Source: Maribacter sp.
GTDB taxonomy: Bacteria; Bacteroidota; Bacteroidia; Flavobacteriales; Flavobacteriaceae
Length of the DNA: 35,143 nucleotides
Reading direction: 5' to 3'
Assembly: GCA_029287355.1 (NCBI GenBank)
Contig: JARFRH010000262.1
Coordinates: 1 to 35,143, forward strand
Under the pieces are notes generated by a model, which was not told the DNA's origin, did not search any database, and saw only the letters and a program-made list of their open reading frames with translations. The position numbers were made by a program, and so were the translations under genes. Positions 15,510 to 28,082 of this stretch are shown here, in pieces (position 1 is the first letter of the stretch; every line of letters begins with the position of its first letter).

Positions 15510-16427
15510 TTAAATCGACCATGTTCCCTCACTGATCGGAATCACCTGGCCTCCTACTTTTAAGATATATTCGTTTTCATTTAATGCTCCATCCAAATAT
15601 AAAAGGGATTCCCTACCCATTTCATAGCCTTGTTCGACAATCGCCGACATCGGGGCGTTCACGTTTTTTAGCAAATAGGCCAACAAACAGCCATTCGCAC
15701 TTCCGGTGGCGGCATCTTCCCAGATACTATCGCTCTCTAAAACAAACATACGGGAATGATACTGATGTTGCTTCTGTTCCGTTTCTTTCGTCACAAAGAA
15801 CAAAGAGGTCGTCAGGCCTATTGGACTGTTTTCTTTATGCAGTTTTTGACTCCTTAAGAATTGCTCCACCTTATCGCTATTCAGTTTAAGCTTCTTAATG
15901 ACATTTAAATTTTTGAGAAAAACAATCAAATAGGGTAATCCCGTATTGACCACTTCGATAGGCATGCTCGAATCGAGGTCATTTGCCGAAAAGCCAAGGG
16001 CTGTGGACACCATTTCCGAATCAAAAGTTGCTCCAAAGTCTGGTTGTGCTTGTTGCATGGTAAATCGACTTGTCTCCAAATTATCAGGGCTGCCGATACG
16101 AACAGGAATATCGCCCTTTTTTAATCTCAGCAGTACTTCATTCGATGGGGTGTCAAGTAACTTTTTAGCGATAATATACGCCGTGCCCAAGGTAGGGTGC
16201 CCCGCAAAAGGCACTTCATATTCCGTTGTAAAAATGCGTACCCCAAAACTACCGTCAGCTTCTATGGAGGTAATAAAAGTACTTTCGGCAAAATTGATTT
16301 CACGGGTTATGGCTAACATTTGATCCGAAGACACTAGTTGTTCCAAATCGAAAAAAACCGCAAGCTGGTTGCCTGCATATTTTTTCGGCGCAAATACGTC
16401 TACAATGTAAAATTTAATGTTCGCCAT
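15510..16427 (-). CDS. PhzF family isomerase
   Basis: 305 aa. The family landmarks are the N-terminal DVFAPKKYAGNQLAVF, a catalytic-type glutamate in NFAESTFI (about 47), VPFAGHPTLGTAY, and EDAATGSANG near the C-terminus. PhzF proteins form a two-lobed diaminopimelate-epimerase-like fold and catalyse isomerisation; only some take part in phenazine synthesis, and no phenazine genes are visible here. Its ATG overlaps the stop of the upstream kinase in the string TAATG, so the two are translationally coupled. The substrate is unknown. Confidence 0.9.
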   Translation of the reverse strand: MANIKFYIVDVFAPKKYAGNQLAVFFDLEQLVSSDQMLAITREINFAESTFITSIEADGSFGVRIFTTEYEVPFAGHPTLGTAYIIAKKLLDTPSNEVLLRLKKGDIPVRIGSPDNLETSRFTMQQAQPDFGATFDSEMVSTALGFSANDLDSSMPIEVVNTGLPYLIVFLKNLNVIKKLKLNSDKVEQFLRSQKLHKENSPIGLTTSLFFVTKETEQKQHQYHSRMFVLESDSIWEDAATGSANGCLLAYLLKNVNAPMSAIVEQGYEMGRESLLYLDGALNENEYILKVGGQVIPISEGTWSI

Positions 16428-17920
16428 TAAGACTCCGTTTCTTTTTCTTTAGGAAAGCGTACTGTGAAAACAGTTCCTTTGCCTGGTTGGGAACTGAAAC
16501 CGATACTCCCTTTATAGGTTTCTACAATGTTTTTGACCATCCCTAATCCAAGACCCATTCCGCTGGATTTGGTCGTAAATTTGGGTTCGAAAATCTTATC
16601 CTCGAAATCATCCGCTATACCAATGCCATTATCGGCAACTGCGATTTTTACAAAGTCTCCATCCGAGGCTACCGTTACTAAAATACGTGGCGCTTCTACT
16701 TCAGGCACCGCTTGAATCGCATTTTTTACCAAATTCGTAATCACACGTATCAATTGGGTACGATCGAGTTTTGCAATGATTTTTTCCTCATCCGCGATGA
16801 AGTGAATATACTTTTCGGTAAAAATATCCAAGGCAAGCTTGACGATGTTCACCACGTTCAAGGTTTCGCTCTGTTGTGCCGGCATCTCCGCGAAATTGGA
16901 GAAAGCGCCAGCGATATTGCTCATGGTATCGATTTGTTGGATCAGCGTCTTGGAATACTCGGCTACTTTCTTTTCTATATCAGGGTCCTTAGGGTCGAAT
17001 TTGCGTTCAAAACTCTGTACACTCAGGCGCATTGGGGTCAAGGGGTTCTTAATCTCGTGTGCCACTTGCTTGGCCATTTCGCGCCATGCTTGTTCTCGTT
17101 CGCTACGGGCCAATTTGGCAGCACTTGCGCCCAACTCATCGATCATCTCATTGTATGAATCGACCAATTTTCCAATTTCTTCACTGGGATTCTTAATGTA
17201 GATCTTCTCATTGCGTTTCGTCAGATCGGTCTCGTGCATCATATCGGATATCGTCTGAAGCGAACGTGTGATATATTTTGAAATGAAGTAGGCCAAACCA
17301 ATGGCGGACAATAACATTAATATGTATACCCAACCCAAACGAACAAAAAATTCGCGTAACTCATATTCATTAAAGGAAGGGTCTTCAAAATAAGGCAAAT
17401 TCAAAATGCCGATCGGTTTGAATTTTGTGTCGTTGATATAGGTGTAAGAAGCCTTGTATTTGTCTCCGGCAGTGGTATTCTCTTCCACATACCGCCGATT
17501 CAAACTAGCCCCTAAATTATTGAGCACTTCTGCATCTAAACAATTGGCAATGGAATCCATCTCGAATTTTGGCCTTGAACTTCTGATCAAGCCACCCTCT
17601 AAGTCATAGATATTGAAATACACATTTTGAACATCGGCAATCTCATAAATCTCATCCTTGAAGATCAAAGGCAGATTTTCGGTAGTTTGCGGATAGGTCG
17701 TTTTCTTGAGAACGTAGTTGATGCTTTGCTTTATCTGCTCTTCCTTCCGTTCTAGACGGATGTCATGATAATCATCGAGTTGTTCGCGGTACTGATAAAT
17801 CGTCACTCCGGATATCAAGACCGACGCAATGACCACTAAAAGAATCATGGTTGTAAAAATGCGTGATCGAAGCGATAGTTTTTTGAGCAAGTCTACGGTG
17901 TTTGACCTCAAAGATAGCAA
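16427..17920 (-). CDS. Membrane sensor histidine kinase (HAMP, NtrY-like)
   Basis: 497 aa. Two membrane helices (about 21-40 and 194-215) enclose a periplasmic sensor domain. HAMP (about 213-265), a HisKA dimerisation domain with H288 in VAHEIKNPLTPMR, and an ATPase domain follow; the N-box is NLVKNAIQA, G1 is DNGIGIADDF and the lid region is SSGMGLGLGMVKNIVE. The HEIKNPLTP box is typical of NtrY-like kinases. No response regulator gene is adjacent, so it is an orphan in this window. Downstream PhzF and crotonase genes are coupled to it, an unusual pairing of kinase and metabolic enzymes. Its leader holds a small hairpin at 17961-17976. Confidence 0.92.
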   Translation of the reverse strand: MLSLRSNTVDLLKKLSLRSRIFTTMILLVVIASVLISGVTIYQYREQLDDYHDIRLERKEEQIKQSINYVLKKTTYPQTTENLPLIFKDEIYEIADVQNVYFNIYDLEGGLIRSSRPKFEMDSIANCLDAEVLNNLGASLNRRYVEENTTAGDKYKASYTYINDTKFKPIGILNLPYFEDPSFNEYELREFFVRLGWVYILMLLSAIGLAYFISKYITRSLQTISDMMHETDLTKRNEKIYIKNPSEEIGKLVDSYNEMIDELGASAAKLARSEREQAWREMAKQVAHEIKNPLTPMRLSVQSFERKFDPKDPDIEKKVAEYSKTLIQQIDTMSNIAGAFSNFAEMPAQQSETLNVVNIVKLALDIFTEKYIHFIADEEKIIAKLDRTQLIRVITNLVKNAIQAVPEVEAPRILVTVASDGDFVKIAVADNGIGIADDFEDKIFEPKFTTKSSGMGLGLGMVKNIVETYKGSIGFSSQPGKGTVFTVRFPKEKETES

Positions 17921-18074: not shown

Positions 18075-18581
18075 CTAAGCTTCCGGGTTCTTATTGCGAA
18101 TGCGTTTGTACAATTTGATGCCGAGCATGAGCAGAATTCCTAAAAGGACGATTCCTACGACCCCATAAATCCAATTGACGGCACTTTTGAGAACGACAAG
18201 AAATATGACGGCAAAGAGGATCAAAGTAGCTCCTTCGTTCCAGATGCGCATATAGTTGCTGGAGTACTTGATTTCATTGCGTTGCAGTTGTTTATACATC
18301 ACATGATTCTTCATATGGTACACAATGAGCAAAACCACAAACCCCAGTTTTACTTGCATCCACGGTTGATAGATCAATCCTGAATTCAGATGTAACAGCC
18401 ACAGGGCGAAAAATGTGCACAAAATGGCCGAGGGCCAAGTGATGATATTCCAAAGCCGCTTGGTCATTAATTGCAATTGTACCGTCAATATTTCCCTTTC
18501 GGGGGATGCCTTTTGTGCCGCTTCAATATGATAAATGAACAAACGCGGTATGTAGAAAAGTCCGGCAAACCAGGTCACCAC
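18075..18581 (-). CDS. HemJ/CopD-like membrane protein, start codon uncertain
   Basis: 168 aa if started at the GTG at 18579-18581. The protein has about four membrane helices. TWFAGLFYIPRLFIYH near the start and VKLGFVVLLIVYHMKNH in the middle match the HemJ (protoporphyrinogen IX oxidase, UPF0093) family, which makes protoporphyrin IX in the inner membrane for heme synthesis. The same frame stays open for a further 17 codons to a TAA at 18636-18638 and reads IEHYNYIKALHLIF, exactly the missing conserved first helix including its histidine, but it contains no ATG, GTG or TTG. ATC at 18621-18623 sits where the usual initiator Met is expected. The gene may therefore use a rare start codon (true extent 18075-18623), carry a start-codon mutation, or contain a sequencing error. 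Confidence 0.82.
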   Translation of the reverse strand: MVTWFAGLFYIPRLFIYHIEAAQKASPEREILTVQLQLMTKRLWNIITWPSAILCTFFALWLLHLNSGLIYQPWMQVKLGFVVLLIVYHMKNHVMYKQLQRNEIKYSSNYMRIWNEGATLILFAVIFLVVLKSAVNWIYGVVGIVLLGILLMLGIKLYKRIRNKNPEA

Positions 18582-18658
18582 GAAAATGAGGTGGAGGGCT
18601 TTTATGTAGTTGTAGTGTTCGATTATTTGAAGGTGTTAGTTATCTCAAAACCGCCACT

Positions 18659-18705
18659 TCGAGCGGAGTCGAGAAGCTTCTAGGCAGGGTCTCGACTCCG
18701 CTCGA
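18659..18705. repeat. REP-like perfect inverted repeat
   Basis: TCGAGCGGAGTCGAGA (18659-18674) and its exact reverse complement (18690-18705) form a 16-base-pair stem with a 15-base loop, followed by CCTGACAG. The arm ending in a TGACAG word is shared with the REP-like palindromes at 28777, 30961 and 33301. Confidence 0.8.
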
Positions 18706-18850
18706 CCTGACAGCAGGACAAAAGTACTAATTACCAAAGTGAAATTCCGAATTATCTACACCCTAATAGCCCAAAAACGGCTTCCAAAGGTTTTTTGGAA
18801 TAGGCGGGAATTGCTTCGCCATAGTCAACCATTCACTATTTGAAGCAGCT
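18706..18850. other. Spacer without a recognised gene
   Basis: AT-rich sequence between the inverted repeat at 18659-18705 and the hairpin element at 18851. I see no coding frame or RNA gene in it. Confidence 0.4.
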
Positions 18851-19070
18851 AAAAGCCCCCTCTTTTATCAAGGAGGGGTGGATACTTGTTTCGCCTAAAG
18901 CCGAAGCAAGAAGACGAGGTGGTAAAATCACAGGGCGCGGTTTCTTGTACCAAAGTTTACGGGAAAACGGGAAAACTCGGGCTTAACCACCCCTTTCTCG
19001 CCCATTCTGCAGCTCGCCCAAAGCTCTCGCTGTATCGCCCCTTGAATCACGATAGCTATCGGGAGGGAGG
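18851..19070 (+). repeat. Gene-less relative of the multi-hairpin element
   Basis: It begins AAAAGCCCCCTC, then AAGGAGGGGTGGAT, and shares ordered words with the copy at 24466-24663: a TTCGC word, GAAGCAAGAAGACG, GGTGGTAAAA, AAAGTT with CGGGAAAAC, and CGGGCTTAACCACCCCTTTCT. GGTGGT and ACCACC form the inner stem. The right end differs: the terminal CCCCTCCT hairpin is missing, and CGATAGCTATCGGG is found at 19050-19063. It is non-coding; the plus-strand open frame crossing it is only the repeat read as codons. It lies directly downstream of the sulfatase gene and could affect its 3' end. Confidence 0.72.
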
Positions 19071-19080
19071 ACCATATTCT

Positions 19081-20850
19081 TTAATCGATTCTTTCCAAGG
19101 AAACCCAAAAGGGGAATATTTTTTTGGACTTGCTCCTATAAAAAGGTACCAGATCACCAACAATTTCGGGCAGCGAAACATTCTTCATCTCCAATAGATC
19201 CACTCCTGTTTTCGTGTTCTTAAATTGGTTGACAATAGGTCCGGCCTCCAAATACATGCTGCCTTCCTCTTGTAAAGGGCTTATAAATTTATAGGTGATA
19301 TTGTAAGTGCCTTCGGCAATATTCACGGCCCATTTTCCATAGACTTCTTCCTGTGCCCAAATACCGCGGTCTCCACCGGCATCATTTCTATTTAAGACAA
19401 TCGGATTTTCATGGGTCGTTCCGATATGAATTCGAGGTGGGTTTTTCAGGTTTTCCGAATGGATCAACTCGGTATAATTTCGTTCTAATTCAGACATCAG
19501 CTTTTCGGCGATAGCTCTTTTCTCCGAAACCATATTGTGTTGCTCGTAAGGGTCATTCGTAATGTCGAAGAGTTCAAAATCTTCTATGGTGGCGTCATAA
19601 TCGGTATGCCCCGCCAATTTATAATTTCCACGCTGCAAGGCAATATTCTGAAACCGTTCAGGATATCTTCTTGTCCAATACGAGAACAGGGAGCGTTCTT
19701 CCCAATCGTGATCGTTTCCATTTAATAAGGGCATCAGGCTCTTGCCATCAATTTTACGGTTCTCAGGAAGGTCAACACCACAGATTTCCGCCAAAGTTGG
19801 AAGTACATCAATATGGGCCGCCATGATAGCTATATCCTTATTTTTCTTCCCTATATCAGGAAGACGCATATAAAATGGCACTCGGGTACCCCCGCGATAC
19901 ACACTGCCTTTTCTGCCACGCATACCTCCCACGTACCGCACCTGCTGCGGACCGTTATCCGTCATAAAAATGACCAAGGTATTGTCAGCGATGTTCAGTT
20001 CTTCGAGCTTCGCTAGTAGTCTTCCAACATTATCGTCGATATTCGACACCATCGCATATACCTTTCGGGCATCTTCCTTGTCTTTCTCTGACATGCTTGT
20101 AAAAGGCCGTCCGTCATCAAATCCGGTTGCCGGGTCGATATCCTTATACATGTCATAATAGCGTTCTGGCACCTGTAATGGCGTGTGCGGCGCATTAAAA
20201 GAGAGATAACAGAAGAAAGGATCGGCAGCATTTTGTGCTATGAAGTCGATTGCGCCATCGGTGAAGATATCGCTGCAATAGCCTTCGTACCCCTGTTGCT
20301 TCCCATTATGCCAAAGCACCGGGTCAAAATAACTGCGGTCACCTTGAAACCAGGTCGTAAAATCACCTACTTGGCCCATACCCCCAGAAAGATGCATGAC
20401 CGACTCATCGAACCCCTGGTCAATAGGCCGGCTAGGATAATTGTCTCCCAAATGCCACTTTCCGAAGAGTCCGGTCTTATAATCCGCCTGTTTCAGGACT
20501 TCCGCCAAGGTCACCTCATCGGTTGACATGATAGCCCCTCCGTTATAGGTGTCACGAACCCCCGTTCGCAAGGAATAGCGACCGGTCATCAAACTGGATC
20601 TTGTCGGAGCACAGACTGGGGAAACATAAAAATTATTGAACCGCAGGCTTTCCTTTGCAAAGGCATCAAGCACGGGAGTTTTTAAATGATGATTTCCCGT
20701 AGCCCCTAAATCTCCGTAGCCCTGGTCATCGGTAATGATCAAAATGACATTAGGGCGTTTTTCAGCTTGTGAAAACACTCCCCATGGTATAAGGAGAATC
20801 AAGAAAAGAATTCCCTTGAACTCCGGCCCCAACTTAAAAATAGTAGTCAC
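19081..20850 (-). CDS. Exported FGly-dependent sulfatase (S1 type)
   Basis: 589 aa from GTG at 20848-20850. The ATG at 20985 would overlap the upstream gene by 109 bases and place a non-hydrophobic extension before the signal peptide, so I reject it; a TTG at 20856 is an alternative. The signal segment is about 13-27, ending FSQ. The metal site DD (41-42) and the C80-A-P-T-R motif, whose Cys is converted to formylglycine, define an active type I sulfatase. A C-terminal beta-rich extension follows the usual sulfatase end. It would release sulfate from sulfated glycans or aryl sulfates outside the cytoplasm; the exact substrate is unknown. It starts 26 bases after the stop of the Asp-box protein gene and is probably co-transcribed with it. 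Confidence 0.88.
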   Translation of the reverse strand: MTTIFKLGPEFKGILFLILLIPWGVFSQAEKRPNVILIITDDQGYGDLGATGNHHLKTPVLDAFAKESLRFNNFYVSPVCAPTRSSLMTGRYSLRTGVRDTYNGGAIMSTDEVTLAEVLKQADYKTGLFGKWHLGDNYPSRPIDQGFDESVMHLSGGMGQVGDFTTWFQGDRSYFDPVLWHNGKQQGYEGYCSDIFTDGAIDFIAQNAADPFFCYLSFNAPHTPLQVPERYYDMYKDIDPATGFDDGRPFTSMSEKDKEDARKVYAMVSNIDDNVGRLLAKLEELNIADNTLVIFMTDNGPQQVRYVGGMRGRKGSVYRGGTRVPFYMRLPDIGKKNKDIAIMAAHIDVLPTLAEICGVDLPENRKIDGKSLMPLLNGNDHDWEERSLFSYWTRRYPERFQNIALQRGNYKLAGHTDYDATIEDFELFDITNDPYEQHNMVSEKRAIAEKLMSELERNYTELIHSENLKNPPRIHIGTTHENPIVLNRNDAGGDRGIWAQEEVYGKWAVNIAEGTYNITYKFISPLQEEGSMYLEAGPIVNQFKNTKTGVDLLEMKNVSLPEIVGDLVPFYRSKSKKIFPFWVSLERID

Positions 20851-20876
20851 CCTCAAATGTCTTGGCCATTGCTGCA

Positions 20877-23800
20877 CTAGTCCGAAATTCGTATCGCTCC
20901 AATACCCGCTTCCCAAAGTTTGGTATTGTATGCCGGAATAGCCGTATTCTTCAGGGCAGCTGCTTTTCCTTTCAAGGTCGACCATTGTGCATCAAGTTCA
21001 ACTTTTCGATCTTTCGAGCCTTGATTGACCCTAGGAATGCTACTATTGGTGGCATCGATCAAAAACAGATATTCGGCCGTGAATTTGTTGGGGAAATTCT
21101 CCACATCATCGTAGGCCTGTGACTTGCGTTGGATCATATCCTTGTCCCAAGCATCGAGCTCGTCCATCAATTTTTGCCCCTCCGCCTTGACGGATGCATC
21201 TTTCACATCCTTTAGAACATCCTTCAGTTGTTGCTGTGCCTTATACAAGGTATTGACCGTATTGTGCATATCGGTCAGCTCCGCTTCCAATTCGTTCATA
21301 AAGCTATGGTATTCGGCATACTGCTCAGGCGTGGTGCTATAGGTGGGCACCGCTACGATTTTACCTTTCGTAGTACTGGTTTCAGCTCCTGATGAAATGC
21401 GAACCGTATAATTTCCAGGGGGTACACGATGACCGCTAAAACGCGACTCGATATAGGTGCCTGGAACTCCGGGTAAAATCCCCGTCCGCATATCCCACAC
21501 AAAACGATTCAAACCTTCTTTTTTGGACAAAACCGGAGCAGGTCTTGGCCCACCACCATTATGCGGTTTGTAATTCTTATCTTTTTCGGAGGTAAAACTA
21601 CGCACGATAGCTCCGTTGGCATCCATAATATCCATTGTGATGGCCACGGAATCCGCTAGCTTGGGCAATTCATAATACAGCACCATACCGTTCGCAGGAT
21701 TCACCCCCGCCAAGGTATTCATCCCATCGAATTTATCCGTCTTACCGTTCAAGGGACTAGACCATGAGCCGTTCATGGCGTCTTTGGGCTGATAGAGTTT
21801 CATGCTATAGTTTCGGCCCTCATGTGAACTGGTTGCCTGACCCATTTCATATTGTGAGAGCATGGTCAAATCATCCAATATCCAAAAAGCCCTGCCCGAA
21901 GTCGCCACGATCAAATCACCTTGGTGGATTTTAATATCCGTTATCGGTGTTTTAGGCAAATTCAATTGAAAAGGTTTCCATGTTTTTCCACCATTCCAAG
22001 AGAGGTACAATCCCTTTTCCGTACCCGCATAAAGCAAATCTTTTCTGACGGGATCTTCGCGTACCACTCTAGTAAAGGCACCATATGGTATTCCGGTATT
22101 GATGCTCGCCCAGGTTTTTCCATAATCCGTACTCTTATATAGCGCAGGGGTATGGTCATTGAATTTATACTTTGTCGTGGCGATGTATACCGTTGCTTTG
22201 TCGTGCGGAGAAATCTCAATGGCATTCACCAAAGACTCGCCCAAATTCTTTGGAGTGATATTTTGCCAGCTTTCACCATTATCCTTGGTGATCTGTACAT
22301 AACCGTCATCGCTTCCTGTATAGAAAACACCGGCTTCGTGCGGAGATTCCAAAACATAGGCCAGCGTACCATAATTTTCAGCTCCCACGGCTTCATTCGT
22401 GTACGGTCCGCCACCTTTGCCTTGTTTGGCATCGATATCCCTTGTCAAATCCGGAGACATTTCTTCCCAGGTCACGCCCATATCACGTGTTCGTAATAAC
22501 AATTGTGCGCCGTGGTAAAAGGTATTGGGTTCATGCTGTGATCTTAGGGTCGGGGCGTTCCAATTGTAGAGGTATTTCATGTTACGTGCCTCCCGACCTA
22601 AATACTGAATAGGAGCCGCCATCACCTTTGTAGAAGCGTTTGATTTGGTATCCAAGATTTCAATCGTACCCAAATAACTTCCGCCCATGACGTATCTGGG
22701 ATTATCGGGGTCGAAGGCTAAAAACGCACTTTCCCCTCCTGCAGACGGACTGAAATCAGACATGGTGATGCCGCCTCTACCCGTAGACAAACTGGCGATC
22801 ATGGCCGATGAATAATCTTGCTGCCCTGCATAAATATTATAAGGATATAGATTGTCGGTATTAATGCGATAGAACTGCCCGGTCGGCATGTTCACTTGCG
22901 AGGACCAGGTTTTTCCAAAGTCAAAACTCACGCCCGCACCCCCATCATTGGCGATGACCATATTCCGGGAATTTTTTGGATTGATCCATAGATCGTGAAA
23001 ATCCCCATGGGTGCCAGTCAAACGTTCCCAGTTCTTTCCTCCATCCAAAGAACGAAGGGCCGGGGCGCTCATGACATAGACAATATTTTCATCTTTGGGA
23101 TCGGTAAATACTTCGATATAGTACCAAGCACGTTGTACGAGTCGGTTATCGCCACTGGCCATACTCCAAGTTTTTCCGGCATCGTTTGACACGAAGAGTC
23201 CGCCTTTGTCTTGATCGCTATCGCTTTCGATTAGCGCGTACACCTTATTCGAATTCGCGGCACTCACAGAAATCGCCATCTTTCCTTTTTCTTCGGGAAG
23301 GCCTTCCGTCATCTCCGACCACGTTTCTCCGGCGTCGGTAGATTTATACAACCCGCTACCTGCGCCACCACTGACCACCATATTCGGTTTACGTTGGTGT
23401 TCCCACATGGCGGCATACATAATTTCAGGGTAATTCGCATCCATCGAAAGCTCTACAGCGCCAGTCAGTTCATTGACAAAAAGCGTATTCTTCCAAGTCT
23501 TTCCGCCATCGGTCGATTTGTAAATGCCGCGTTCTTTATTCGGACCATATAATTGCCCCTGAGCCGCCACATATACTATATCAGGATTGGAAGGGTGAAT
23601 GATAATCCGCGAAATATGTTGGGTCTCTTTGAGTCCCATATGCTTCCAGGTTTGTCCGGCGTCGGTAGATTTATAAACCCCGTCTCCATAAGAAGTCATT
23701 ACTCCACGCGGTGCGTGCTCGCCCATGCCCACATAAACGATATTGGTATTAAAGGTGGACACGGCCACTGCACCTACAGAGCCCATTTCAAAGTAGCCAT

Positions 23801-24451: not shown

Positions 24452-24465
24452 ATGGTTCAATAGAT

Positions 24466-24663
24466 AAAAGCTCCCCTCCTAATTCTAGGAGGGGTGGATT
24501 CCTGATTCGCAACAAGCGAAGCAAGAAGACGGGGTGGTAAAAGCCCAAGGCTTGGGTCTTTACTCTAAAGTTCGCGGAAAAACGCAAAATTTCGGGCTTT
24601 ACCACCCCTTTCTTTGCCTCTCGGCAAATTCATTCCCCTCCTCGAAAAAGGAGGGGAGCTTTT
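24466..24663 (+). repeat. Multi-hairpin repeat element beside the DUF559 gene
   Basis: 198 bases bounded by perfect 15-base inverted repeats, AAAAGCTCCCCTCCT (24466-24480) and AGGAGGGGAGCTTTT (24649-24663). Each end can also fold on itself: 24473-24481 pairs with 24486-24494, and 24635-24642 pairs with 24649-24656. A middle stem pairs GGGGTGGTAAAAGCCC (24531-24546) with GGGCTTTACCACCCC (24594-24608), with one bulged A. The whole can form a three-hairpin, cloverleaf-like shape closed by AAAAGCT/AGCTTTT. It starts 15 bases upstream of the DUF559 ATG and ends 16 bases after the copy 2 Asp-box gene. It has no open frame of its own. Confidence 0.85.
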
Positions 24664-24679
24664 ACTCATAAACCAACAA

Positions 24680-27600
24680 CTACTCCTCCTCCACAAACAA
24701 ATAATTCAAGCTCAATTCGTTAAACGCTTTATTAAACTCTTGTAACTCCGAATCGAGCATGGCATCAAAGGCTTTTAATTGTGTTTCTATTTTGCCGGTT
24801 AGTTCTTTTTGAACGGCTATATCTTGATCTGTGGGCGGAAAATCACCAATGCCGACCAATCGGTTGAGATGCGCTAATTTGTTCGTCAATCGGATCGGGA
24901 AGTTCAAGGGGTCTTGACCACTTCGGTTTTGGGTTTGGTATAAGGCTTTCTCGATTTTTTCGAACTCCTCCTTCATGGTTTTTGCCTTCTCCACCAGCTC
25001 TTTGGTTTGGGCATTGTCTTTATACTGCTTGGTGAACGCATCTAATTGTTTATTGACACCGCGTATTTTCTTGATGGAACCATGCGCCTTGTCTACCGTC
25101 GCGTTGATCTCCGAAATAAAATCGTGCTGCTTCTGCATATCGGCGACTGAAACCTCAGCCCGTGGATCGGGGATTATATTGAACTCTTGGGTTTGATTCG
25201 CACCGTTAACGTTCAGATGGACTTTATACTTCCCAGGTACGGCTTTTGGTCCGTCGAAGCCTGCTGCCCAAAAAATCATGCCCTTTAAGGTTTCGGCTTT
25301 TTTGCCACGGGTGTTCCAAACATGGGTGTTGCCTCCTTTTTCGACTTTGATTTTCTTCTCTTTTTCTTTGGCGGAATTGCTGAAGGATGCCAAGGTATCC
25401 CCTGCCATGGTCGTATAGGTGACTGCGATACTGTCTTTCTCGGCTAGATTTTTCAAATAGAAATGCGTAATCACGCCATTCGGATGGTTCATGCCTTCGG
25501 TCTTAGAGGGCTCCTTAGCTGCACGGCCACTAGTACGGTAGCTGTCTTTTGGTTTGTACAAAATAGAGGCCATGCTTTTCTTCGCATCATCCAATTGATG
25601 GATGACCGTTAAGTCGTCAATGATCCACAGACTTCGACCTTGAGTGGCGACGATTAAATTGTTGTCCTTAATCGCCAAATCGGTAATGGGAACGATCGGA
25701 AGGTTCAACTGAAACGGACTCCAATTAGCTCCGTCATCAAAGGAAATGTACATGCCCGTTTCGGTACCGGCATACAAAAGCCCTTTTCTTTTCGGGTCTT
25801 CGCGAACGACGCGGGTAAAATGTTCGGCTGGTATACCATTCGTTATTTTTTTCCAGGTCTTCCCGTAGTCGGTGGTTTTGTAAAGATAGGGCGCAAAATC
25901 ACCCAGCTTGTATTTGGTCGCTGCTACATAGCAGGTGCCTTCATCAAAGGCGGAAGGTTCGATACTGTTGATCATGTTCCATTCGGGCATTCCAGCGGGG
26001 GTTACATTCTCCCAATTGGCGCCTCCATCTTGGGAAACGTGAATCAATCCGTCATCACTTCCTACCCAAAGTAGTCCTTCTTTAAGCGGACTCTCATTGG
26101 CCGCGAAAATGGTACAGTAGTATTCCACTCCTGTGTTATCCTGAGTTATCGGGCCTCCACTGGACACCAGTTTTGTAGGGTCGTTACGCGTTAAATCGTC
26201 ACTTAATAATTCCCAACTTTGGCCTTCGTTGGTGCTCATGTGCACATGCTGTGAAAAGGTGTAGAGTTTTTTCGGGTCGTGCTTGCTGAACATAATCGGA
26301 AAATTCCATTGAAAACGGTATTTCATGCCCTCGGCACCATAACCCATCGGGTTATCAGGCCACACATTGATACCGCGAACGGTTCCTGTTTCGTGATTTA
26401 CCCGAGTTAGGAATCCACCATAACTACCACCATAGACGATATCATTATTCAAAGGATCCACGGCAATATGCGCCGATTCACCACCTGCAGTGACCTCCCA
26501 ATCGTCTTCGCTAATACTGTTTCCGTCGCTGCGGTGTTTGACACGCAGTGTAGAGTTGTCTTGTTGGGCCACATAAATACGATATGGGTGCGCATTATCG
26601 GTCGTCACGCGATAATACTGTGCGGTAGGCTGGTTGTAATAGGTACTCCAAGTTTCGCCGCCATCGTAGGAAACCTGTGCGCCTCCATCATCGCCAATGA
26701 TCATACGTTTAGAGTTCTCTGGCGATATCCACAGATCGTGATGATCGCCATGGGGGGCATTGAAGGTATTAAAAGTTTTACCGCCATCGGTAGATTTGTG
26801 ATAGCGTACGTTCAAGACATACACCACATCTTCGTCTTCGGTATCGGCATAGATACGGGTGTAATACCAGGCACGCTGACGCAGTTTACGTTCGCTATTG
26901 ATTTCCGTCCATTTTTTGCCTCCATCTTCGGAGCGGTAGAGCCCGCCTTTTTTCTTGTTCTCGACAATGGCCCAAACCCGCTCTGAATTTTTCGGGGAAA
27001 CGGTGACGCCGATAATCCCTAAAGTATCTTTAGGGAAGCCTTCGTTTTTGGAGATCTCCGACCAGGTCTCACCGCTATCGGTACTTTTCCACAAGCCCGA
27101 ACCATCACCCCCACTACTTAAACTGTAGGGCGTTCGTTTTGCGCGCCATGAGGCCGCATATAAAATACGCGGATTGTTGGGATCTAGGGTCAAGTCGACA
27201 AAGCCCGATTGGTTGTTTACAAAAAGTTTCTTGCTCCAGGTCTTTCCGCCATCGGTACTTTTATAGATACCGCGGTCTTGGGTAGGCTTATAGATATTTC
27301 CTAAAACGGCCGCATATACCACATCTGAATTGGTCGGGTGAATGCGAATACGGGGTACATGCCGACTATTTTTTAACCCTGCCGAAGTCCATGTTTTGCC
27401 TCCATCTACGGTTTTCCAAATGCCATAGCCCGAAGACACATTACCCCGAAGGGTTTTTTCACCGCCGCCCACATAAATCACATTCGGGTCGCTTTTGGCG
27501 ACCTCAACGGCACCGATACTACCCCCAAAATAGCCATCGGAGATATTCTCCCAGCTACGGCCACCATCGAGGGTTTTCCAGACACCACCGCCAGTGGCAC

Positions 27601-27820
27601 CAAAATAAAAGAGATTGGGCTCGCCCGGCACCCCAGTTACGGCAGCAGAACGCCCGCCCCGGTGAGGCCCAATAGAACGGTACTCCAAGCTCGAATAGAG
27701 GTCTTGTGGGTAAGCGGTCTTTACAGGTTGTACTTTGTTACGTCTTTGTGAATTTGCCGTTAACGGAATAAACAGCAGGACCAAGGCCAAAAGGCCTAGG
27801 TGGGTGTAGTAGTTCTTCAT
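24680..27820 (-). CDS. Secreted VPS10/sortilin-like Asp-box repeat protein (copy 2)
   Basis: 1046 aa with a signal peptide (hydrophobic about 9-22, ending NSQ). It opens YRSIGPHRGGRS and carries about ten Asp-box motifs ([46 protein letters not shown] and others) across the first 700 residues. A C-terminal beta part with PGKYKVHL and a charged helical end follow. Overall order and spacing parallel copy 1 (20877-24032), so the two derive from an old duplication. No clear glycosidase active site is seen, so a hydrolase label would be inference. Upstream lies a long hairpin (27844-27895). Between the two copies sits the DUF559 element. Export is expected; there is no obvious C-terminal sorting domain. 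Confidence 0.88.
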   Translation of the reverse strand: MKNYYTHLGLLALVLLFIPLTANSQRRNKVQPVKTAYPQDLYSSLEYRSIGPHRGGRSAAVTGVPGEPNLFYFGATGGGVWKTLDGGRSWENISDGYFGGSIGAVEVAKSDPNVIYVGGGEKTLRGNVSSGYGIWKTVDGGKTWTSAGLKNSRHVPRIRIHPTNSDVVYAAVLGNIYKPTQDRGIYKSTDGGKTWSKKLFVNNQSGFVDLTLDPNNPRILYAASWRAKRTPYSLSSGGDGSGLWKSTDSGETWSEISKNEGFPKDTLGIIGVTVSPKNSERVWAIVENKKKGGLYRSEDGGKKWTEINSERKLRQRAWYYTRIYADTEDEDVVYVLNVRYHKSTDGGKTFNTFNAPHGDHHDLWISPENSKRMIIGDDGGAQVSYDGGETWSTYYNQPTAQYYRVTTDNAHPYRIYVAQQDNSTLRVKHRSDGNSISEDDWEVTAGGESAHIAVDPLNNDIVYGGSYGGFLTRVNHETGTVRGINVWPDNPMGYGAEGMKYRFQWNFPIMFSKHDPKKLYTFSQHVHMSTNEGQSWELLSDDLTRNDPTKLVSSGGPITQDNTGVEYYCTIFAANESPLKEGLLWVGSDDGLIHVSQDGGANWENVTPAGMPEWNMINSIEPSAFDEGTCYVAATKYKLGDFAPYLYKTTDYGKTWKKITNGIPAEHFTRVVREDPKRKGLLYAGTETGMYISFDDGANWSPFQLNLPIVPITDLAIKDNNLIVATQGRSLWIIDDLTVIHQLDDAKKSMASILYKPKDSYRTSGRAAKEPSKTEGMNHPNGVITHFYLKNLAEKDSIAVTYTTMAGDTLASFSNSAKEKEKKIKVEKGGNTHVWNTRGKKAETLKGMIFWAAGFDGPKAVPGKYKVHLNVNGANQTQEFNIIPDPRAEVSVADMQKQHDFISEINATVDKAHGSIKKIRGVNKQLDAFTKQYKDNAQTKELVEKAKTMKEEFEKIEKALYQTQNRSGQDPLNFPIRLTNKLAHLNRLVGIGDFPPTDQDIAVQKELTGKIETQLKAFDAMLDSELQEFNKAFNELSLNYLFVEEE

Positions 27821-27843
27821 TTTGTGTTCTTTTGGTTCAACAA

Positions 27844-27895
27844 AAAAATCTGTGATTTCGAGCGTCCCGAAATTTCGGGAGAGAAAAAGATTTTT
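27844..27895. repeat. REP-like palindrome in the copy 2 leader
   Basis: The core CCCGAAATTTCGGG (27866-27879) is a perfect 14-base palindrome. The outer AAAAATCT (27844-27851) pairs with AGATTTTT (27888-27895). Read on the minus strand, CTCTCCCGAAATTTCGGGAC followed by GCTCGAAA matches the repeat at 30961-31013. It lies 24-75 bases before the ATG at 27820, so it is in or near the 5' leader of the Asp-box gene. Confidence 0.7.
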
Positions 27896-28082
27896 CGTGT
27901 GATTAGCTTTTCAAATTAGTCCGTTTAAATGTAGTGAACTCGTGCAACTTAAAAAAATGATGCTTGTCAAGATTTTTTGGGATAAACCGTAGTTGCGAAT
28001 TACTGCTGTCAACGGCGATTCAATCTGTAGTAGCGTAAATGTCAATAGTATTCCCTATTTTAGTTTTTATGCGTAAGTGAAT
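27896..28082. other. Spacer without a recognised gene
   Basis: AT-rich spacer between the copy 2 leader hairpin and the tRNA-like fossil. I see no supported coding frame or promoter here. Confidence 0.4.

Follow-up and report, generated by a model that had tools for sequence, protein, structure and literature searches.

The gene for a HemJ-like protein on contig JARFRH010000262.1 of a Maribacter sp. (assembly GCA_029287355.1) raises the question at which codon its translation starts. The contig was analyzed over its whole length of 35,143 nt and is called the window in the following. The source genome (4.23 Mb, 353 contigs, 2.84% contamination) is perhaps a metagenome bin. In the window hemJ forms an open stretch of 186 residues on the minus strand, situated between a sulfatase gene and a histidine kinase gene (Table 1).

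The encoded protein matches PF03653 with 143.7 bits (E 6.5e-42, cut-off 34.2), so the family named in the first-pass annotation of this DNA is borne out. With the equivalog model TIGR00701 it scores 115 bits and stays below the cut-off of 138.05. The same holds for all four relatives tested (116.6, 123.6, 130.9, and 117.1 bits), and the shortfall is therefore unrelated to the start codon. Since the TIGR00701 cut-off was not reached, we file the gene as UPF0093, HemJ-like; its role as protoporphyrinogen oxidase is putative and follows from the family match.

Table 1. Features in and around the hemJ gene (positions in the window)
Feature	Position	Strand	Basis or remark
Histidine kinase gene, downstream of hemJ	16427..17920	-	Conserved gene order
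hemJ (UPF0093, HemJ-like putative protoporphyrinogen oxidase)	18075..18626	-	183 aa if started at ATA
GTG, first canonical codon, within helix 1	18579..18581	-	ORF listing
ATC, start in the first-pass annotation; alternative start, though residue 2 (Ile) is more likely	18621..18623	-	Homology columns
ATA, most likely start	18624..18626	-	ATG in the sister genome and in four other ATC-type genes
TAA, in-frame stop closing the frame upstream	18636..18638	-	Read from the sequence
REP-like inverted repeat within the leader of hemJ, with a predicted hairpin of 16 bp	18659..18705		Repeat search, folding
TACTTTTG, fits TAHHTTTG, the -7 element of Bacteroidetes	18719..18726	-	Motif match, 92 nt before ATA
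TAGTGAATGGTT, 12-mer in common with the sister leader right upstream of hemJ	18827..18838	-	Shuffle test
Sulfatase gene, upstream of hemJ	19081..20985	-	Also in the sister genome

The hemJ frame lacks a canonical start codon

Read on the minus strand, the stop codon TAA is followed in frame by CAC CTT CAA ATA ATC GAA CAC TAC and then by AAC TAC ATA AAA GCC CTC CAC CTC ATT TTC GTG. From the stop down to this GTG there is no ATG, GTG, or TTG; the second ATA, at 18603-18605, lies inside the conserved helix. The first helix is thus encoded in frame upstream of the GTG, as had been claimed before. Because no earlier canonical codon is available in the frame, the ORF lister begins hemJ at this GTG and arrives at a product of 168 aa.

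To compare the starts, hemJ loci were fetched from the genus (13 of 14 genomes contain the gene), from the family, where 266 genomes have a match and first 30, later 80 more of them were sampled, and from 80 named contigs, which are mostly labelled Flavobacteriaceae or genera within this family. After removal of identical coding sequences the 203 loci yielded 188 distinct genes (115 of 123 in the first round). The ATC of the window was taken as column 0. A canonical codon was found at columns -1 to +2 in 185 of the 188 genes: ATG occupies column 0 in 78, column -1 in 59, and column +1 or +2 in 8 genes, and in 40 genes GTG or TTG is the best codon near the start. No such codon is nearby in three genes; in two of these (L186 and L236) an ATG nevertheless occurs in the same frame, 4 or 8 codons further up. 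The alignment of HemJ starts, proposed as a check in the first-pass annotation, thereby singles out the window as the only gene (1/188) without a usable canonical start, and together with the frame itself it upholds the claim that ATG, GTG, and TTG are missing at the expected position. None of the other 187 distinct genes conserves the rare codon.

The comparison also bears on the first canonical codon in the frame, the GTG within helix 1. A start at this position would give the 168-residue protein, and the peptide IEHYNYIKALHLIF would not be part of the product. Such a protein would lose most of helix 1 together with the Lys at column 7 and the His at column 10, which are present in 188 of 188 hemJ genes. 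We regard this start as very improbable.

Two candidates for the start codon: ATA and ATC

The first-pass annotation had placed the start at ATC, exactly where homologues begin with Met. For the column as such this is correct in 78 of the 188 genes, but in 59 the ATG lies one codon earlier, and it does so in the closest relative. This is the sister genome G010 (locus L012, named copy L069), whose hemJ is 87% identical to that of the window and which shares the upstream sulfatase gene. In a tree of 35 chosen rows of the 123 the window groups with G010 with a support of 93/86, the bootstrap not being fully settled. The start region reads ATG-ATC-GCC in G010 and ATA-ATC-GAA in the window. ATC occurs at column 0 in five other hemJ genes (L008, L012, L075, L100, and L235), and in all five, the sister included, ATG directly precedes it. 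These two observations argue that ATC is residue 2 and that the ATA before it is the altered start. The idea of a rare start thus stood, with ATA rather than ATC as the probable codon, and by homology ATA is the likeliest start of hemJ in the window. The G010 frame remains open for 12 further codons upstream, to a GTG, and the ATG of G010 is accordingly a likely, though unproven, start. As the DNA upstream differs strongly from that of the sister, the change from ATG to ATA by one substitution is an argument of parsimony over a poorly alignable flank.

The sequence context points the other way. In Flavobacterium johnsoniae A at -3, -6, -12, and -13 favours initiation (PMC6847099, PMC9976891). 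The ATA has none of these four bases (C at -3, C at -6, T at -12, and C at -13), whereas the ATC has A at -3 and -13, two of the four. The weight of this point is reduced because only 37 of the 137 ATG-started hemJ genes have A at -3, so that this base predicts little. No Shine-Dalgarno sequence was seen by eye before hemJ in the window. F. johnsoniae, a model of the group, does not rely on Shine-Dalgarno pairing. Initiation at ATC, in spite of its context and of the 78 homologues with ATG in the same column, is in our judgement improbable, the ATG one codon earlier in 5 of 5 ATC genes and the infC genes of the family, which show ATA and not ATC, speaking against it.

ATA in place of a canonical start in infC

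The gene for IF3, infC, is the classical gene with a rare start. ATT is used in E. coli and ATC in Streptomyces (PMC5472188). We compiled 43 infC loci (L301-L343), namely 13 of the genus, with L301 from the source genome itself, and the best 30 of 117 family matches. All 43 carry ATA-GCW at the same place, a pattern that the script had sought. In the genus, 13 of 13 loci have no ATG, GTG, or TTG upstream of the domain and show the invariant ATA; in the source genome, too, ATA stands in place of a canonical start, as judged from the sequence alone. When the loci were located by another motif, 40 of 42 had no canonical codon in frame before the domain; of the two exceptions, one has a GTG that follows the ATA, the other a TTG located 32 codons ahead of the domain. 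The Ile codon two past the first ATA varies (30 ATA, 11 ATT), and the invariance of the first ATA is therefore not a matter of codon preference alone. The leader of infC is conserved and A-rich, with A at -13 in 43/43 and G at -3 in 41/43 loci; the hemJ leader of the window is unlike it. Across the phylum 22 of 50 infC loci had no canonical codon in the scanned stretch, and the starts look varied outside the family.

From this conservation we infer that infC probably starts at AUA in these Flavobacteriaceae loci. No AUA start of infC in Flavobacteria is apparent in the titles and abstracts of the papers searched, which does not imply its absence from print. As the ATA is conserved in the Flavobacteriaceae loci read, autoregulation of IF3 would become testable in F. 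johnsoniae.

The coding sequence is intact

The hemJ frame of the window contains neither a stop codon nor a frameshift. Its branch in the hemJ tree has a length of 0.12 compared with 0.083 for the sister, so there is no marked acceleration. Between the window and L012 the differences per site are mainly silent over the whole gene (pN 0.095, pS 0.79, the latter saturated); for the first 15 codons after ATC pN is 0.169 and pS 0.632. These values indicate that the coding sequence is intact and constrained.

The gene is the sole PF03653 gene in the source genome. A HemY-type oxidase over the cut-off was found in none of the 14 genus genomes, all of which gave partial matches below the cut-off; the search covered HemY-type oxidases only. 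In the family a PF03653 match is missing in 33 of 299 genomes and in 16 of the 249 good ones, and hemJ can therefore be lost and is not indispensable in the family.

It is thus conceivable that the start was destroyed recently, by the rearrangement of the leader with its REP-like insert, and that HemJ is no longer made, as a first step of decay. The losses just mentioned fit this explanation, and so do the strong dissimilarity of the leader to that of the sister and the presence of a 12-mer of the sister leader about 200 nt upstream. An open reading frame with neither stop nor frameshift, the lack of marked acceleration, and the status as sole PF03653 gene without a HemY over the cut-off, in a search that covered this type of oxidase only, argue against it, and we give it a low probability.

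The leader region of hemJ

From the sulfatase stop codon to the start the distance is 457 nt in the window (through ATA) and 63 nt in the sister (through ATG). The leader of the window is rearranged and contains the REP-like inverted repeat. A search of the source genome yielded 17 half-sites of this repeat with up to 3 mismatches, 18659-18705 included, and none in the reversed control. The segment 18590-18708 folds with -42.7 kcal/mol (z -5.97).

Upstream of the repeat lies TACTTTTG, a candidate -7 box by its motif match; the -7 consensus of F. johnsoniae is TAHHTTTG (PMC6847099). A -7-like box within 40 nt of the start is present in 50 of the 188 hemJ genes and in 3 of 113 background windows, and 109 of the 188 genes have none within 150 nt. 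At one other locus, L009 (G005), hemJ is preceded by a similar REP-like repeat and a -7-like box at 93 nt; a TTG start follows, which sits right after a stop codon.

The 12-mer TAGTGAATGGTT recurs in the sister leader right upstream of hemJ. Its score was reached by 0 of 1000 shuffles with the 63-nt query and by 13 of 1000 once the query was extended by 60 nt. It is possibly a remnant of the old leader and would then tentatively suggest that DNA was inserted between this leader and hemJ.

Three further ideas on the leader were tried and rejected. First, coupling to a leader ORF found no support: two short ORFs terminate 13 and 18 nt ahead of the ATA (stops ending at 18640 and 18645), and the longer one already opens at 18737, on the upstream side of the -7-like box, and would hence not be on the transcript from this box. 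Second, a clean deletion of the promoter and the ATG was considered on the basis of TTCAAATA, common to L004, L011, and L065, yet the upstream similarity to the window is weak. The score was reached by 12, 18, and 33 of 500 shuffles, respectively; for L044, L061, and L008 the numbers were 7, 14, and 45, and for the other ten rows 223 to 494. Only for L009 did none of 500 shuffles reach the score, owing to the REP-like repeat. Third, the pattern TAGTGAATGGTTNAC fits the window and not the sister and is ill-suited; it matched the window, an unrelated place in G011, and the reversed control once.

Two other repeats were noticed upstream of hemJ. The 152-base intergenic stretch 18847-18998 recurs with 77% identity at 24462-24613, likewise intergenic. 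The stretch of about 40 bases at 19007-19046, distinct from the REP-like repeat, has copies with 83-90% identity in five other contigs (C15, C61, C200, C221, and C257). In related genomes tandem repeats of about 7 bases (e.g. units TAGCCAA and GCTAACT) lie directly upstream of hemJ at L002, L005, L006, L037, and L081 and take up most of the 45 bases inspected, reaching the start codon or ending close to it. Such repeats could vary the length of the leader.

Could the missing start be an error?

That loss of the start or an error could also account for the missing codon had been conceded from the beginning, and we retain both as real options alongside a rare start. In the case of an error of sequencing or assembly, or of a mixture of strains, the base at 18624 or a few of its neighbours would differ and an ordinary ATG would be real. 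The window is the only one of 188 genes without a start and is one base away from the ATG of the sister, and the genome is fragmented into 353 contigs with 2.84% contamination, being perhaps a metagenome bin. A second genome of the species was not found, which leaves the base at the hemJ start unreplicated.

The other genes of the window were examined for comparable defects. Eleven genes could be compared with syntenic contigs; 14 more matching frames lie inside better-scoring genes. In nine of the ten genes other than hemJ the homology begins at a canonical codon or at most 5 residues from it. For the tenth (24683-27910) it starts near a canonical codon for one relative only, and the sister differs. 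In this comparison of starts none of the ten genes is without one, and the hemJ frame itself is intact. On balance an error is unlikely, though still a serious contender.

In the tenth gene the frame ahead of the ATG of the 24680-27820 gene (stretch 27820-27910) can be aligned with the sister over 28 residues, but not with the second close relative that spans this stretch. It may be a conserved leader or a longer start.

Proposed explanation: a working hemJ with an AUA start

The explanation that we tentatively prefer is that hemJ is a working gene whose start codon was altered from ATG to ATA on the lineage of the window. Ribosomes would begin at this ATA with fMet-tRNA, as the sequence suggests for infC of this genome at its own ATA, and would produce a normal HemJ of 183 residues at a low rate. 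As the third base of AUA mismatches the initiator anticodon, IF3 would be expected to oppose this initiation; abundant IF3 would then lower the HemJ level, and a shortage of IF3 would raise it. We hold this explanation with less than even confidence because the decisive base is unreplicated, and because error, initiation at AUC, and decay are together about as likely.

If AUA is used, hemJ would be a second AUA-started gene beside infC and would test how a weak start is found without Shine-Dalgarno pairing. Gene callers that assume ATG, GTG, or TTG would truncate HemJ at the cost of its conserved first helix, which is what happened with the ORF lister.

Weak starts in other hemJ genes

It had been suggested that a weak start limits the level of HemJ, and to us this appears plausible. 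For comparison two other genes of heme synthesis in related species were used, hemH and hemB, each with the 30 top-scoring loci of 56 matches in 60 genomes. GTG or TTG starts were found in 40 of 185 hemJ genes and in 0 of 58 controls, i.e. 0/28 for hemH (2 more were not located) and 0/30 for hemB, where ATG stands at the start in 30 of 30 loci. Fisher's test gives p 8e-6, which overstates the independence of the data, as the genomes are related and the controls comprise two genes. In the subset from genus and family genomes (n=116) 90 hemJ genes have ATG, 23 have GTG or TTG, and 3 have none nearby. L164, counted among the 40 genes with GTG or TTG, also contains ATGs in frame farther upstream. 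As GTG and TTG starts recur in hemJ and are absent in hemH and hemB, the idea of a limited HemJ level gains some support across the family.

A more far-reaching proposal would be that HemJ initiation is a regulated node in Flavobacteriaceae, at the last-but-one step of heme synthesis: weak starts would recur and keep the output low, and in the species of the window AUA would add control by IF3 jointly with infC. This proposal counts GTG and TTG, the tandem repeats in leaders, and the AUA of the window as weak starts. We consider it rather doubtful.

Comparison with known systems

Within the UPF0093 family (PF03653) the gene of the window resembles the others in sequence, length, and invariant N-terminal residues, but it differs from all 187 distinct genes compared with it in lacking a usable canonical start. 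Rare starts under the control of IF3 are known in other bacteria, and hemJ of the window would by analogy be a further case.

In Streptomyces sigR has a GTC start that is repressed by IF3 (PMC5472188). As in the genome of the window, a codon one base off a canonical start occurs together with a rare-started infC. The sigR codon, however, is described as conserved across Streptomyces and has been tested genetically, whereas the hemJ codon is found in a single genome.

In Staphylococcus aureus AUA serves as the start of infC and ccpN, and for citZ it is reported in NCTC 8325-lineage strains (PMC13009471). Compared with AUG, the non-canonical starts tested there reached about 10% of the output in poor medium, and the AUA of ccpN up to 30% in rich medium (PMC13009471). 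The likeness to the window lies in an AUA start in a metabolic gene, citZ, while infC is itself AUA-started. The sites in S. aureus were mapped by ribosome profiling, whereas the ATA of the window is known from its sequence only; furthermore, the paper describes Shine-Dalgarno motifs of the extended kind at infC, cvfC1, and ccpN, and none was seen at hemJ. Conservation of the rare codon, which is true of infC and sigR and amounts to 1 in 188 for hemJ, is not required in citZ. The closest parallel to hemJ of the window is citZ, a metabolic gene whose AUA has a limited spread.
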